Shown piece after piece: positions 7,442 through 31,608 of a stretch of DNA of 33,667 bases. The stretch comes from Bacteroidota bacterium. Its GTDB lineage: Bacteria > Bacteroidota > Ignavibacteria > Tepidaquicellales > Tepidaquicellaceae. Every line of letters begins with the position of its first letter. The stretch's first letter is position 1. The translations under genes were made by a program, and so were the position numbers. The stretch is from the NCBI GenBank assembly GCA_021286895.1, contig JAJTBN010000007.1, forward strand, positions 1-33,667. Direction: 5' to 3'. The notes under the pieces were generated by a model that made no database searches, was not told where the DNA came from, and was given only the letters and a program-made list of their open reading frames with translations.

Positions 7442-7484
7442 ATATAAAAAAATCCCGGCAGGAAGCCGGGATTTTATATGAAAA
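7442..7484 (-). terminator. Intrinsic terminator, copy 1 of a 43-bp identical pair
   Basis: On the minus strand this is a 10-bp stem (AAATCCCGGC / GCCGGGATTT) with a TTCCT loop and a run of T. It lies downstream of the RAYT gene and its REP. The 43 bases are identical to 8240-8282 on the other side of the RAYT element. Confidence 0.8.
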
Positions 7485-7540: not shown

Positions 7541-8086
7541 TTAAAAATACATGATACGTATCAGCCTCTGATCATTACAATAATAATTTCTGTAACTCGA
7601 ATATTTCCAGTCCTCCGGATTCTTTACCAACCCTTTTCTTACGGGATTCAAATGTATGTAATCCATTTTAATCTCCATAATTTTATCGCCGTAAATAATA
7701 AAATCATCAAACCTGTCTTTCCAAATCTTGAAGACTGTGGATTTGCAATATTTCGCATTCATCCTCAGCCTGCTCAGGATATCCTCCCTCCCGTCTGCTA
7801 TTAGTTGCTCCCTGATTTTGAATGAAGTATACTTTTTAAAATCCCTCATAAAAGCAGATAGGATTTTCCCGCTTTCAATATATAATATCAAATGCAGGTG
7901 ATTCGGCATGAAGACATACGAAATTAATTTTACCTTATATTTTTCAAGAAGAAATTTCAAAGAATCCATTAAAATCCCGTAATATTTTTCCTCCGTAGAA
8001 AATATATTCTCAAAATTCATCACGGTCGTTGTAACGAATGAAACGAGCCAATCATTTTCGAAGAAACTTCTACCTCTGAGTCCCAT
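7541..8086 (-). CDS. REP-associated tyrosine transposase (RAYT, Y1/HUH family)
   Basis: This 181-residue single-strand DNA transposase belongs to the IS200-like Y1_Tnp superfamily. The HUH motif is visible as MPNHLHLIL (His63, His65). The C-terminal family block YIHLNPVRKGLV (Tyr143) follows, then PEDWKYSSYRNY. Tyr143 is a candidate nucleophile, although assignment from sequence alone is uncertain because this subgroup reads RFDDF where many relatives have RFYD. It has a strong Shine-Dalgarno sequence (AGGAGG, 8 bases before the ATG), unlike most neighbours. RAYTs act on the REP palindromes that flank them, and here REPs lie on both sides. The gene is full length with no frameshift, so it may be active or recently so. 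Confidence 0.9.
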   Translation of the reverse strand: MGLRGRSFFENDWLVSFVTTTVMNFENIFSTEEKYYGILMDSLKFLLEKYKVKLISYVFMPNHLHLILYIESGKILSAFMRDFKKYTSFKIREQLIADGREDILSRLRMNAKYCKSTVFKIWKDRFDDFIIYGDKIMEIKMDYIHLNPVRKGLVKNPEDWKYSSYRNYYCNDQRLIRIMYF

Positions 8087-8239: not shown

Positions 8240-8282
8240 ATATAAAAAAATCCCGGCAGGAAGCCGGGATTTTATATGAAAA
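8240..8282 (-). terminator. Intrinsic terminator of the subtilase gene, copy 2 of the 43-bp pair
   Basis: This is the same 10-bp-stem hairpin plus T-run as at 7442-7484, here 13 bases after the stop codon of the minus-strand protease gene. The 85 bases between the right REP and this site are AT-rich and hold no recognisable feature. Confidence 0.85.
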
Positions 8283-26990: not shown

Positions 26991-28805
26991 ATGGCAGTTA
27001 AAAAAATCGTACATAAGAAGGAAGACGAAGCGCTCGGCAAACCCATAGATTCGCTGCTGTTCAGAAGACTGCTGCAGTATTTCAGGCCGTATATCTGGCA
27101 TATAATACTCGCGACTTCGCTCACTATCTTTATCGCGGCGCTTTCCGCGGTAAGACCGAGACTTACGCAGATAGCGATAGACGACAATATCGTAAACAAG
27201 AATATTCCCGGACTGCAGAAAATAATTATACTGCTTATCGCCACCCTCGTTCTTCAGGGATTCATTCAGTACGCGATGACGTACCTAACAAGTTGGATAG
27301 GACAGAAAATAATTTTCGACCTCCGCAAGAAAATATACAATCATGTTATCAACCTCAACCTGAAGTTCTTCGACAACAATCCGATAGGCAGGCTCGTTAC
27401 GAGAGTGACGAACGATGTCGAAGTGCTTTACGAAGTGTTTTCGTCAGGACTCGTCACCGCTTTCGGCGATATACTTACAATAGTCTGGATATTGTACTTC
27501 ATGTTTTCTCTTGACGTAAAACTTACGCTCGTCACGCTGTCCGTACTGCCGCTTCTGATTTACGCTACATCCGTGTTCAGAAAATCGGTCAGAAATTCGT
27601 ACAGAAAAATCCGCGGCCTTATCGCGTCGATAAATTCGTACATACAGGAGCATATAACGGGAATCGGCATAGTCCAGCTTTTCGGCACCGAGAAAAGAAC
27701 GATTAATGAATTCGAAAAAATAAACAGGGAGCATACCGATGAGAACAAAAGAAGCATTACTTATTACGCTCTGTTCTTTCCTGTTGTGGAACTTCTCGGG
27801 GCGGCCGCCGTCGGCCTGATAATCTGGTACGGAGGCGGACAGGTCGTTCAGTCGGTTGTTTCGGTCGGAGTTATAATTTCATTCATACAGTACACCGAAA
27901 TGTTCTTCAGGCCGATACGCGACCTCGCGGAAAAATACAACATACTCCAGACAGCGATGGCTTCAAGCGAGAGAATTTTCGACCTTCTCGATACTGATAA
28001 TCCTATCAAAGACGTGGAAAATCCGGCAGGGATTAATGACGTGAAAGGTGAAATAGAATTTAAGAACGTATGGTTCGCTTACAATGACGACGATTACGTC
28101 CTCAAAAATGTCAACTTCAAAATTCATGCAGGCGAAAAGGTCGCTTTCGTCGGACATACAGGCGCGGGTAAAACCACAATCATAAACCTTATCAACAGGT
28201 TCTACGACGTCAACAAAGGCAGTATAATGCTCGACGGTGTTGACATCAGAACCATGCCGCAGAAAGAACTGAGAAAGAACATCGGTGTCGTTCTTCAGGA
28301 CGTGTTCCTTTTTTCGGGAGATATAAAATACAACATAGACCTTGATAACGGAGAAATTCTTCCTGAAAAAATAGAATCGGCGCTCGATAACTCTGGGCTC
28401 AGGAAATTTATAAACGAACTGCCCGCGGGTATCGGACACAAGGTAAACGAAAGAGGCACGACACTTTCTGTCGGTCAGCGGCAGTTGATTTCTTTCGCGC
28501 GCGCGCTGGCTTACGACCCGAAAATACTCGTACTCGACGAAGCCACTTCCTCTGTCGATACCGAGACGGAAATACTGATTCAGAAAGCGACGGAAAAATT
28601 AATTGAAGACAGGACTTCTATAATTATCGCCCACAGGCTTTCAACTATACAGGAATGCGACAAGATTATCGTTATGCACAAAGGCGAAATTAAGGAAGCG
28701 GGCAGCCATCAGGAACTGCTCAATAAACGCGGACTATATTACAAACTTTATCAGTTACAGTATAAAGAAGATTTCGAAAACATTGAAAATAAAAATGACA
28801 GGTAA
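26991..28805 (+). CDS. ABC exporter half-transporter (subunit 2)
   Basis: The start at 26991 was chosen because it has a GAGGAG Shine-Dalgarno sequence eight bases upstream and follows the subunit 1 stop by one base. The longer frame from 26889 would lie inside the previous gene. The 604 residues have six membrane helices (about 33-305) and an ATPase domain with Walker A GHTGAGKTT (388-396), Walker B ILVLDE with catalytic Glu517, and His548. The signature is LSVGQ (492-496) in place of LSGGQ. This is complementary to subunit 1: its altered signature faces the subunit 1 site that lacks the catalytic Glu. Together they form one consensus and one degenerate ATP site. Confidence 0.93.
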   Translation: MAVKKIVHKKEDEALGKPIDSLLFRRLLQYFRPYIWHIILATSLTIFIAALSAVRPRLTQIAIDDNIVNKNIPGLQKIIILLIATLVLQGFIQYAMTYLTSWIGQKIIFDLRKKIYNHVINLNLKFFDNNPIGRLVTRVTNDVEVLYEVFSSGLVTAFGDILTIVWILYFMFSLDVKLTLVTLSVLPLLIYATSVFRKSVRNSYRKIRGLIASINSYIQEHITGIGIVQLFGTEKRTINEFEKINREHTDENKRSITYYALFFPVVELLGAAAVGLIIWYGGGQVVQSVVSVGVIISFIQYTEMFFRPIRDLAEKYNILQTAMASSERIFDLLDTDNPIKDVENPAGINDVKGEIEFKNVWFAYNDDDYVLKNVNFKIHAGEKVAFVGHTGAGKTTIINLINRFYDVNKGSIMLDGVDIRTMPQKELRKNIGVVLQDVFLFSGDIKYNIDLDNGEILPEKIESALDNSGLRKFINELPAGIGHKVNERGTTLSVGQRQLISFARALAYDPKILVLDEATSSVDTETEILIQKATEKLIEDRTSIIIAHRLSTIQECDKIIVMHKGEIKEAGSHQELLNKRGLYYKLYQLQYKEDFENIENKNDR

Positions 28806-29394
28806 ACTTTTACTCGCGACAAACAATAAGGATAAGGTAACGGAAATAAAAAATCTGCTCGCGCGGCTTGACATTCAGGTACTTACGCTTAAAGACCTGA
28901 ACCTCGAAATTGACGTTGTAGAGGATAAGGATACTCTCGAAGGCAACGCCCTTAAGAAAGCGTCCGAAATATGGGATGCCGCCCGAATCCCATGCTCCGC
29001 CGACGATACGGGCCTCTTCGTCAACGCTCTTAACGGCGAACCGGGCGTATATTCGTCGAGATACGCGGGCGAAAATGTTTCGTATGCCGACAACAGGCAT
29101 AAATTGCTGAAAAACATTTCGGATGTTCCCGATGTTAAAAGAACCGCGAGATTTAAAACCGTCGTCTGCTATTACTACGGAAAAGACAAATACACTTTCT
29201 TCGAGGGTTGCTGTGAAGGCCGCATTCTGAAAGAAGAACGCGGAGAAAAAGGATTCGGCTACGACGCCGTATTCCTCCCGGACGGATACGATAAAACATT
29301 CGGAGAACTCAGCCTCGATGAAAAAAATAAAATCTCCCACAGGGCGAAGGCATTCATTAAATTCAGGGACTACCTGGCTTCAATTAACAGTTAA
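28795..29394 (+). CDS. rdgB: ITP/XTP/dITP pyrophosphatase (RdgB/HAM1)
   Basis: The enzyme hydrolyses non-canonical purine nucleoside triphosphates to monophosphates and so keeps inosine and xanthosine out of nucleic acids. The 199 residues show LLATNNKDKVTEI (6-18), SADDTGLFVNALNGEPGVYSS (68-88) with the conserved acidic pair, KGFGYDAVFLP (152-162) and the SHR block (181-183). The ATG at 28795 fits the family N-terminus; an in-frame TTG at 28783 would add four residues. It overlaps the ABC subunit 2 gene by 11 bases, so it is translated from the same mRNA. The stop codon lies in TTAACAGTTAAC, a sequence that recurs in inverted form near 29966. Confidence 0.96.
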   Translation: MTGKLLLATNNKDKVTEIKNLLARLDIQVLTLKDLNLEIDVVEDKDTLEGNALKKASEIWDAARIPCSADDTGLFVNALNGEPGVYSSRYAGENVSYADNRHKLLKNISDVPDVKRTARFKTVVCYYYGKDKYTFFEGCCEGRILKEERGEKGFGYDAVFLPDGYDKTFGELSLDEKNKISHRAKAFIKFRDYLASINS

Positions 29395-29402
29395 CTATTG
29401 AA

Positions 29403-29837
29403 TCAGAATTTAAAATCTAAGTGTCCCCCGCTGGCGGGGGTGCGGCTTTTGCCGCGGGGGTGGGCTGTCCGGGATTCAATTTCCTCAATTTTAGTCTTAA
29501 TAATATCAATAACATTATCCATAGCATTGAGTACATCATCGAATCCAGCTTCTTCTAATTCTTTTTGACGAACAATATCTTTTTCAAAAACCTCTTTCCA
29601 ATCATGAATAGCTCCGTCGAGCTCAATAATCAGTTTTAATTCCTTGCACATAAAATCCGCAATATAACTTAGGACACGTCTTTGTCTGCTAAACATATAT
29701 CCAAGCATTTTCCCAGACTTAAGGGCATACTTCCACAAACAGGATTCAGACTTTGTCATTTCTCTGCGAAGTTTATTTGCAAAAGGCTGAAGTCGCTTGT
29801 TATAATTCGTTTCTTCCGACAACTTTGCCGTACACAT
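29403..29837 (-). CDS. DUF559 endonuclease-like protein (PD-(D/E)XK, Vsr-like), probably altered
   Basis: The 144 residues match the DUF559 family: NKLRREMTKSESCLWKYAL, then RQRRVLSYIADFMCKELKLI, then IELDGAIHDWKEVFEKD. The likely acidic metal-binding residues are Asp61, Glu72 and Asp74. The family usually continues after the helix with GF-x-VLRF-x-N-x-x-VL. Here GFD runs straight into DVLNAMDNVIDIIKTKIEEI, so about seven residues including the conserved Arg seem to be missing, by comparison with the remembered family pattern. The last ~24 residues are encoded inside a GC-rich hairpin repeat and are not family sequence; the stop lies just beyond it. The gene is flanked by inverted hairpins. 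Function is inferred only. Confidence 0.8.
   Translation of the reverse strand: MCTAKLSEETNYNKRLQPFANKLRREMTKSESCLWKYALKSGKMLGYMFSRQRRVLSYIADFMCKELKLIIELDGAIHDWKEVFEKDIVRQKELEEAGFDDVLNAMDNVIDIIKTKIEEIESRTAHPRGKSRTPASGGHLDFKF
29421..29468 (+). repeat. Left double-hairpin end of the DUF559 cassette
   Basis: Hairpin 1 is CCCCCGC / GCGGGGG (29425-29431, 29434-29440). Hairpin 2 is GCGGC, TTTT loop, GCCGC (29442-29455). GGGGGTGGG follows. It lies within the 3' part of the DUF559 reading frame and 27 bases after the rdgB stop. Confidence 0.8.
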
Positions 29838-29840
29838 TTA

Positions 29841-29888
29841 CACCCTCCCCCGGCAGCTAAAGCTGCCACTCCCTCCGGAGGGGGACAT
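29841..29888 (-). repeat. Right double-hairpin end of the DUF559 cassette
   Basis: Hairpin 2 is GGCAGCT / AGCTGCC (29852-29858, 29861-29867). Hairpin 1 is the perfect palindrome CCCTCCGGAGGG (29871-29882) within TCC...GGGGGACA. It ends three bases before the DUF559 start codon, so the gene's promoter would have to lie within or beyond it. Confidence 0.8.
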
Positions 29889-29950
29889 TGCTTTGCAATA
29901 TGCAGTAAACAATCAGATAAATTTTCTTCCCTGAAGCTACCTGCTCTAAT

Positions 29951-29978
29951 TGTTAACTGTTAAATGTTAACTGTTAAC
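29951..29978. repeat. 7-bp tandem repeat, four units
   Basis: TGTTAAC, TGTTAAA, TGTTAAC and TGTTAAC stand head to tail, ending four bases before the last codon of the dipeptidase gene. The reverse complement of two units, TTAACAGTTAAC, occurs at the 3' end of rdgB near 29385-29396. Confidence 0.75.
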
Positions 29979-29982
29979 TGAA

Positions 29983-31608
29983 CTACTTTTCCCTGAACTT
30001 CTCCCCCGTCAGTTTAACGAGCTGCCTGTACCATTCCTGCGAGTATCCCGGCTGAGATACCTTCGGCACTCTGCTTCCAGGTACGGGAGTCTTAATGTTT
30101 CCGTCCATGTACTTCGTGAACAGGAATCCATACAACTGTTTCCATCTGTCAAAAGTATTCTTTCCCGCTTTCAGACAGTATTCAGTAAGAAAATCCCTCG
30201 CGGTTTCGGGGTCTTTCTGATAAAGTTCGAGCATCGTCTTATCAACATCGGCGATGCTGTTTATATATCCCTGCTCAAGTTCTTTCTGTACAGGCTGAAT
30301 ATCGAGAATCATATCTTTGTATCTGGTATAAGCGAAATTCGAAACCTGATTAAAAACCCAGAACAACGCGGAATCGCTGAACACCATCATGTCGCCGTTG
30401 CCTACCGCGAAATTCGGCGGCACCTGCTTAATCGCCGTGTACATCGGCGTGTAAACAGTCGTATAGTTATCGTCAACCCCGAACCAGAAAATACCGCCGA
30501 GATTTTCTGGCATCCATGAACGCGACTGCGTTACGAATGAAAATCCCGTCTGCTGTGTCGAGATAGCCCTTTCGTTGAAATAAGTTAGCGAATCCACTTT
30601 CCATGTCAGCGGCCTCCATCTTACGGGGCAGGTGTAGGGTCCCGCGCCGAAATCCTTCGTCATGTCGAGTTCCGTTCCCTCAAAGTGGTCTCTCATCGCG
30701 TTCATTACATCGTACGCCGATAATTTCTTATCGGGCTTCACCCATAGCGGCATCCTGTTTTTTAGATTTTCGCCCTTTGCGTAATCAAGATATTTGTTCA
30801 TTCCGGGCGACAGTTTGTTGAACAGCGCCCATACTCTTGCTTCACAGAATCTCGCGCCTTCAAAATCGACGGGAGCGTAAGTATCGGAAAATGAAAACTC
30901 TTCGTCTTTGCCTTTAAAAAACCCTTTTGTCCTTGCGAAGGAAATCACATCTTTCGCGTAATAGCAGTTCACCGTATCGTTCAGCGGGAATTGCCTTATC
31001 CTTGCCTGATTGGCGTGCCCCGAAATGTAGCCGTCGGGTATTCTTACCGCTACCCAGACCGCGCCCTTGGTTCCGGCGCCCTTGCCGACCATTTCCATTA
31101 TCCATGCTTCATTCGGGTCGGACAGCGAGAAGGTCTCTCCCTCGCTGCAATAACCGTATTCATCCGTCAACTGCGTCATTACCTTTATCGCTTCCCTGCA
31201 ATTCTTAGCTCTCTGCAGCGCAAGATAAATAAGCGAACCGTAATCCATCTTCGCCGTAGAATCCGGCAGTTCAGGCTTTCCGCCGAATGTCGTTTCGCCG
31301 ATTGCTAACTGAAACTCGTTCATGTTCCCGACTACGTTGTATGTATGCGGAACCTGCGGAATCTGCCCGAGCAGTCTTCCCGAATCCCATTCTATAACGT
31401 CAAGCATCGTTCCCGGAGGATAATCCGCCGCGGGCCAGAAATAAAGTTCGCCGTAAAGCGTATGCGAATCCGCCGTGTAGGTTATCATAGTCGAACCGTC
31501 AACGGACGCGCCTTTTGTCACAAGAAAGTTTGTACAGGCATCAACAGTTTCTTTCATCACAGAAAACTGAAGAAAAAGTACAGTAATTAATATGAGAATT
31601 TTCTTCAT
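29983..31608 (-). CDS. Secreted C69-family dipeptidase (Ntn hydrolase)
   Basis: The 541 residues belong to peptidase family C69 (PepD-like). These enzymes are made as precursors and use an N-terminal Cys as nucleophile after cleavage. Cys25 in DACTNFLVTKGASVDGSTM is the expected nucleophile, placed right after a hydrophobic signal segment (3-16). Other family blocks are NVVGNMNEFQLAIGETTFGG, DYGSLIYLALQRAKNCREAI, EGETFSLSDPNEAWIMEMVGKG, and VRIPDGYISGHANQARI. Export suggests it cleaves dipeptides outside the cytoplasm. It has the same orientation as the M13 peptidase gene upstream, but 405 bases and a terminator separate them, so it likely has its own promoter. Confidence 0.93.
   Translation of the reverse strand: MKKILILITVLFLQFSVMKETVDACTNFLVTKGASVDGSTMITYTADSHTLYGELYFWPAADYPPGTMLDVIEWDSGRLLGQIPQVPHTYNVVGNMNEFQLAIGETTFGGKPELPDSTAKMDYGSLIYLALQRAKNCREAIKVMTQLTDEYGYCSEGETFSLSDPNEAWIMEMVGKGAGTKGAVWVAVRIPDGYISGHANQARIRQFPLNDTVNCYYAKDVISFARTKGFFKGKDEEFSFSDTYAPVDFEGARFCEARVWALFNKLSPGMNKYLDYAKGENLKNRMPLWVKPDKKLSAYDVMNAMRDHFEGTELDMTKDFGAGPYTCPVRWRPLTWKVDSLTYFNERAISTQQTGFSFVTQSRSWMPENLGGIFWFGVDDNYTTVYTPMYTAIKQVPPNFAVGNGDMMVFSDSALFWVFNQVSNFAYTRYKDMILDIQPVQKELEQGYINSIADVDKTMLELYQKDPETARDFLTEYCLKAGKNTFDRWKQLYGFLFTKYMDGNIKTPVPGSRVPKVSQPGYSQEWYRQLVKLTGEKFREK

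Follow-up and report, generated by a model that had tools for sequence, protein, structure and literature searches.

The intergenic interval between the Ham1 gene (28783-29394) and a C69 peptidase gene (29983-31608) raises the question of whether a small nuclease gene and the inverted hairpins that frame it form one mobile unit. The window, i.e., the whole 33,667-nt stretch of Bacteroidota DNA that was analyzed (contig JAJTBN010000007.1), harbors in this interval (29395..29982) an arrangement that the first-pass annotation had put forward as an undescribed mobile cassette, in which a nuclease recognizes, or spreads with, its own palindromic repeat. Judging from the comparison of genomes, we consider it likely that the unit is mobile and that its nuclease acts on the ends cognate to it.

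The nuclease gene and its palindromic ends

The gene, a 144-aa ORF on the minus strand (29403..29837), belongs to the DUF559 (EDxHD/Vsr-like nuclease) family, and its domain spans 29478-29795 on the same strand. Its original assignment as a DUF559 nuclease is borne out by the PF04480 profile, which scores 84.3 bits on the ORF (curated cut-off, 20.6), and by Vsr-like fold matches. When the predicted structure of the window protein (pLDDT 83.9) was compared to solved structures, the first matches were 3hrl, annotated as a putative endonuclease-like protein, and the I-Bth0305I catalytic domain (3r3p; probability 1.00, E 0.0018). Vsr followed, and Vsr and PvuRts1I are weaker fold neighbors. The DUF559 family profile also matches 3r3p by sequence (E = 3.5e-5). 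On the predicted structure, the homing endonuclease I-Bth0305I is the closest fold of known activity. One DUF559 gene was previously placed in the EDxHD family (PMC9403480). The cassette resembles EDxHD/Vsr-like homing endonucleases such as I-Bth0305I in its fold, its detectable sequence similarity, and its mobile, nuclease-centered organization. However, I-Bth0305I is described as a mobile-intron enzyme with added DNA-binding regions, whereas the DUF559 cassette is single-domain, lacks an intron or intein, and has palindromic, putatively triplex-forming ends. A search with PADLOC returned weak hits only.

The window protein retains E31, D61, E72, D74, and H78. The DUF559 core is incomplete, as an alignment with 40 relatives places a gap of ~8 residues after residue 99, near position 29540, in a conserved strand (RF..N in relatives). 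Because these conserved-strand residues are missing, the window copy is probably decayed and inactive. As a separate observation on the site, AT-rich heptamer-like repeats (TTAACTG, AATTACT) occur at 29379-29400 and 29947-29982 of the window and at three other loci (L010, L357, and L160). In the window's genus, such repeats border several cassettes and other palindromic inserts, and they are possible preferred landing or repair tracts.

The two ends are inverted copies with the same order of parts, as the first-pass annotation had described. The left unit (29422..29464, plus strand), of the G-C stem/T tag type, lies at the 3' end of the gene and reads TGTCCCCCGCTGGCGGGGGTGCGGCTTTTGCCGCGGGGGTGGG in the gene-ward direction; it consists of a hairpin CCCCCGCTGGCGGGGG, a second hairpin GCGGCTTTTGCCGC, and a gene-facing tag GGGGGTGGG. 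The right unit (29843..29887, minus strand), of the T-A stem/A tag type, lies 5' of the gene and reads TGTCCCCCTCCGGAGGGAGTGGCAGCTTTAGCTGCCGGGGGAGGG gene-ward (29887-29843), with a hairpin CCCCCTCCGGAGGG, a second hairpin GGCAGCTTTAGCTGCC, and a tag GGGGGAGGG that also faces the gene. The inverted alignment of left against right scores 17, and none of the shuffled flanks of any locus reached 14. The left unit is part of the reading frame, as had been noted, and the right unit, with its CAC at 29841-29843, stops three bases before the start codon, again as reported. The claim that the ends differ mostly by changes that keep pairing also holds. Over nine aligned units of the window genome, pairing was found in 93.1% of cells, compared to 84.3% in shuffles and 47–65% when the partner strand was slid, and both-sided changes occurred in 8 cells versus 2.5 expected.

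The GGGGG-x-GGG motif of the ends is informative at x, the critical tag base, where A accompanies T-A stem pairs and T accompanies G-C stem pairs. Among the units of the window's genus, A was found in 14/14 with T-A stems and T in 11/12 with G-C stems (Fisher p = 1.6e-6), i.e., the tag base covaried with the stem pair in 25/26 units, and the middle hairpin varied. Two sub-families by descent could produce such a table; however, a structural link between stem and tag is favored because the same middle hairpins occur with both types. A.AT and T.CG are the triads expected in a purine-motif triplex. By eye, every type shows a tag that is the mirror image of the 3' stem strand, with T allowed opposite A. 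A mirrored tag with a score of at least 8 on at least one flank was present at 50% of the stand-alone loci of the phylum; a direct-repeat rule gave 8%, and flanks farther out gave 3%. The contrast was weaker in other phyla (82% versus 59%) because GGGAGAGGG is its own mirror. The build of boxC/TM repeats, i.e., a Y block, a complementary R block, and a mirrored R tag, was found across loci; the units of the window have a short mirrored stretch, which the second hairpin interrupts. Read in this way, each end is a hairpin with a tag mirroring its 3' strand, a putative intrastrand triplex motif. Intrastrand triplex formation by TM-ECO was observed by CD and NMR (PMC4666352).

The end type follows the nuclease

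Inverted hairpins at other DUF559 genes, a check that the first-pass annotation had suggested, were found in the same genome, through the phylum, and in other phyla. The window genome carries three full-length DUF559 genes (in the window, on contig C65, and at the edge of contig C314), and inverted palindromic ends are present at 3/3. A covariance model of the unit gave 26 matches in this genome, of which ~20 are strong; two congeners yielded 11 and 13 matches. Gene-less end pairs, likewise sought, are present twice, at C70:9181-9284 and C138:5851-5961, in both cases as inverted pairs with inward tags and a 14-nt spacer. Contig C131 holds a composite pair, and the remaining units of the window genome are solo.

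PF04480 occurs in 63/148 sampled genomes of the phylum. We aligned the 250 nt upstream of the domain to the reverse complement of the 250 nt downstream, and 60% of the 82 stand-alone DUF559 loci of the phylum scored at least 14. In the controls, this score was reached by 5% of mismatched mates (flanks paired across genomes), by no shuffle (0%), and by 1.4% of these loci when the flanks were taken 750–1000 nt out. Ham1 control loci reached a score of 14 in 11% of cases and 16 in 0%, versus 48% of the DUF559 loci at 16. DUF559 domains in large ORFs were unfit as a negative control and were dropped since they turned out to be cassettes inserted in frame, with linkers encoded by the hairpins; Ham1 loci and farther flanks were used instead. 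The ~40% of stand-alone loci below the threshold would reflect either decay or other end types. Among 78 loci spread over many phyla (including Pseudomonadota, Chloroflexota, Nitrospirota, and CPR), a biased sample chosen by similarity to alignment A2, 63% reached a score of 16, compared to 18% of mismatched mates and 0% of farther flanks. Additionally, when whole genomes were scanned with a pattern for one end type, 33 hits were obtained in 12/148 genomes, and 10 of these 12 genomes carry DUF559 (Fisher p = 0.0035). The hits lay within 5 kb of a DUF559 gene in 20/33 cases, or 8/21 after exclusion of the four genomes from which the pattern had been designed.

Seven tag types were assigned to both flanks by one rule. 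On the DUF559 protein tree, the tag type changed 12 times (minimum, 6), compared to 31.9 times with shuffled labels, and 0/200 shuffles were as low. The nearest protein from another genome had the same tag type in 27/37 cases versus 5.6 expected, and in 20/37 when the comparison was limited to proteins below 60% identity. Conversely, the tag type differed in 9/11 pairs of DUF559 genes within one genome. The few changes on the tree, the agreement of nearest proteins, and the differences within genomes indicate that the ends belong to the nuclease; thus, the end type co-evolves with the nuclease, not with the host genome. The first-pass annotation had named hairpins without a link to DUF559, together with DUF559 genes that lack them, as the outcome that would overturn its proposal. 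Solo units do exist, yet the ends recur at DUF559 genes elsewhere and their type tracks the nuclease.

Occupied sites, unoccupied sites, and the route of movement

Empty sites in related genomes, also among the suggested checks, were found at the window site, in a MutS-GntR interval, and in LeuRS. The orthologous site of the window is without the cassette in three genomes (G207, G206, and G214), and an unrelated palindromic pair lies at the orthologous place in G207. Within one genus, four species carry a cassette in the MutS-GntR interval and four others lack it there. In this interval, differing small ORFs adjoin the same DUF559 cassette in sister species (L298, L301, L305, and L307), as if neighboring cargo had been exchanged along with it. 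In genome G078, a 490-bp cassette including both ends is present at two unrelated loci with 85.5% identity, and the homology stops near the outer edges of the ends. In genome G206, two cassettes have a common gene and do not share the left end, a pattern more consistent with homing or turnover of the ends than with a fixed unit that moves as a whole. At two loci of that genome (L357 and L362) with genes 85% identical, one identical 47-nt end unit stands at opposite gene ends, and the ends seem interchangeable. We infer the mobility of the cassette from these genome comparisons.

Cassettes also occur in frame inside protein-coding genes, namely LeuRS (at two sites), MetH, RecG, PheT, HsdR, and HsdM, where the palindromes are translated as Pro/Gly-rich linkers. 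In the LeuRS family sample, the insert is absent in most genera and present in five, one decayed; it measures 149 aa, of which 103 belong to DUF559, and the host frame is open throughout. A gene-less end pair as an intermediate was not found at the LeuRS site. The DUF559 domain is under purifying selection, with omega mostly 0.03-0.2. The LeuRS of genome G149 (L364) carries a decayed DUF559 insert at the same site, still in frame, with the catalytic region eroded. The LeuRS loop is an insertion-tolerant hot spot, and in other genera (L130, L132, L142, L152, and L155) it holds unrelated in-frame REP-like repeats (GTCATTGCGAGC..). An intein or a group I intron was rejected as an explanation of the insert, which is too small, leaves the host frame open, and has no intein domain among its Pfam matches.

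In the mechanism that we propose, each end would fold on one strand into a hairpin, and the tag would fold back onto it to supply the third strand of a triplex. The nuclease would recognize its own end pair, with inward tags and a short spacer between them, and would cut at or near it. Repair of the break would then copy the cassette into the cut place, as with homing endonuclease genes. The gene-less pairs, like the solo units, would then represent either non-autonomous derivatives or targets still empty, and a triplex or hairpin extruded at the replication fork may be a natural substrate. We lean toward this description of a widespread, small, selfish, homing-like cassette, with an EDxHD/Vsr-like nuclease between inverted palindromic, putatively triplex-forming ends. 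Homing as its exact route is offered tentatively, at rather less than an even chance.

A transposase-like route, in which the nuclease would excise or copy the folded single strand between the ends into new sites, comparable to IS200/IS605 or REP/TnpA-REP, appears unlikely. The two whole copies in G078, with homology ending near the edges of the ends, suit it, as do the dispersed solo units and gene-less pairs and the ability of the ends to fold as a single strand, as in REPs. However, the enzyme has no HUH or DDE chemistry, its nearest solved relatives are homing/Vsr-fold endonucleases, and no clear target-site duplication and no constant target site were found at the cassette sites compared.

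A less probable reading still, which we regard as poorly compatible with the distribution of the cassette, takes DUF559 as a resident Vsr-like repair or restriction enzyme and the palindromes as terminators, regulatory hairpins, or inert local repeats. GC hairpins can act as transcription terminators, and the weaker fold neighbors Vsr and PvuRts1I would fit such a role. In Caulobacter, a methyltransferase mutant requires the DUF559 protein VsrA to mount its DNA-damage response (PMC12907096). However, terminators need neither an inverted pair, nor a mirrored tag, nor in-frame translation inside LeuRS and MetH. The presence of the gene is also patchy, both in the 63/148 genomes of the phylum and in E. 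coli, where ycjD is found in 3365/5426 genomes and its neighbor sapF in 5372, and orthologous sites differ among sister species.

The window has its own Y1_Tnp (RAYT-like) gene at 7541-8086, flanked by inverted hairpins of its own (GTCAGGTGTTTCCACCTGA). Outside these hairpins, two identical 43-nt hairpin copies lie in direct orientation at 7442-7484 and 8240-8282. Units of the DUF559 type are absent from this locus and from the other Y1 loci examined in the window genome, which have different palindromes or none. The idea that a Y1 (RAYT-type) transposase mobilizes the units, with DUF559 as a passenger between two REPs, draws on the abundance of Y1_Tnp (98/148 genomes, including one gene in the window) and on the REPtron-like architecture, and it was rejected as highly improbable because a Y1_Tnp match is absent in 14/63 DUF559 genomes (including G059 and G106, whose ends are among the strongest), the Y1 palindromes are unrelated, and the end type tracks the DUF559 tree. 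The first-pass annotation had equated the architecture with that of the RAYT element. The layout is indeed alike, and the ends are not akin; the likeness is one of architecture only, because the ends of the window Y1_Tnp are unrelated and Y1-less carriers exist. In both systems, an enzyme gene lies between inverted palindromes that bear a conserved tag, the end types are cognate, and gene-less pairs are dispersed (PMC6006769). In contrast to REP/RAYT, the DUF559 cassettes encode a PD-(D/E)XK/Vsr-like nuclease and not an HUH Y1 enzyme, often in genomes with no Y1; there is no GT[AG]G at the hairpin foot, and the tags are stem mirrors.

boxC repeats, YcjD, and the wider family

The boxC/PIT/TM-ECO repeats of E. 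coli have been known since the 1990s. The three names denote the same intrastrand triplex repeats, present in E. coli and more than 260 genomes and described as gene-less and intergenic; the authors of the 2015 survey never found mobility activities around them and gave no mechanism for the instability nearby (PMC4666352). The cassette ends share with boxC/TM-ECO the hairpin with a mirrored purine tag and the inverted pairs with inward tags and a short spacer. From the published coordinates, 4/5 TM pairs of K-12 have inward tags, with a spacer of 16-27 nt (PMC4666352, Table 1). However, in the window's genus, the units differ in sequence and place a second hairpin between the stem and the tag. 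The earlier proposal of a mobile nuclease cassette with its own palindromic repeat thus stands with regard to recurring ends, gene-less pairs, and empty sites, and the ends, in contrast, belong to the known boxC class.

Several observations connect this class to the DUF559 gene of E. coli, ycjD. TM-ECO number 9 (1351204-1351239) lies ~170 bp from ycjD. In strain FDAARGOS_1289, the exact published TM-ECO motif ends the ycjD ORF with its tag gene-ward and is translated as SPSPQPSP. This terminal stretch is held by about 175 E. coli genomes at ≥80% coverage, and K-12 has a shortened form of it. Beyond E. coli, the exact TM-ECO consensus was found within 250 nt of DUF559 at 23/80 multi-phylum loci versus 1/62 farther flanks. 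The exact unoccupied ycjD junction was not readable within E. coli, as ycjD-less strains are rearranged (with a TetR gene beside fabI). The boxC copy number looks bimodal in 60 sampled E. coli records (1-4 versus 9-23), as counts not paired per genome with the presence of ycjD. E. coli YcjD and the boxC/TM-ECO repeats may be the same system as the DUF559 cassette, and DUF559 is the first good candidate for the spreader of boxC repeats.

The in-frame copies invite a further comparison. Rickettsia palindromic elements (RPE) are palindromic inserts that keep the reading frame of protein-coding genes and are translated; they carry no gene. The DUF559 inserts are likewise palindromic, in frame, and translated; unlike the gene-less RPE, they include a nuclease domain of ~100 aa. 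In the literature searched (open-licence PMC papers), we found no paper tying DUF559 or PF04480 to palindromic repeats. The boxC-class ends, the EDxHD/Vsr fold, and the palindrome-plus-enzyme idea (REP/RAYT) are known already; their combination, the co-evolution of ends and nuclease, and the in-frame cassettes were not found there. A broader proposition, to which we give close to an even chance, is that Vsr/EDxHD-like nucleases constitute a new, pan-bacterial class of mobile DNA that would recognize and spread triplex-forming palindromes, both as nuclease cassettes, intergenic or in frame in essential genes, and as nuclease-less boxC-like repeats.

The cassette accounts for the odd Pro/Gly-rich linkers that accompany DUF559 in LeuRS, MetH, RecG, PheT, and subunits of type I restriction systems; without it, these arrangements would look like domain fusions. 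With the boxC/PIT/TM-ECO class tied to one enzyme family, ycjD included, the question can be addressed directly in K-12. The proposed system, if true, would be a second bacterial palindrome-plus-enzyme system beside REP/RAYT, with triplex DNA and a nuclease of homing-endonuclease fold, and it would explain the origin of the boxC/PIT/TM-ECO elements and the instability around them.
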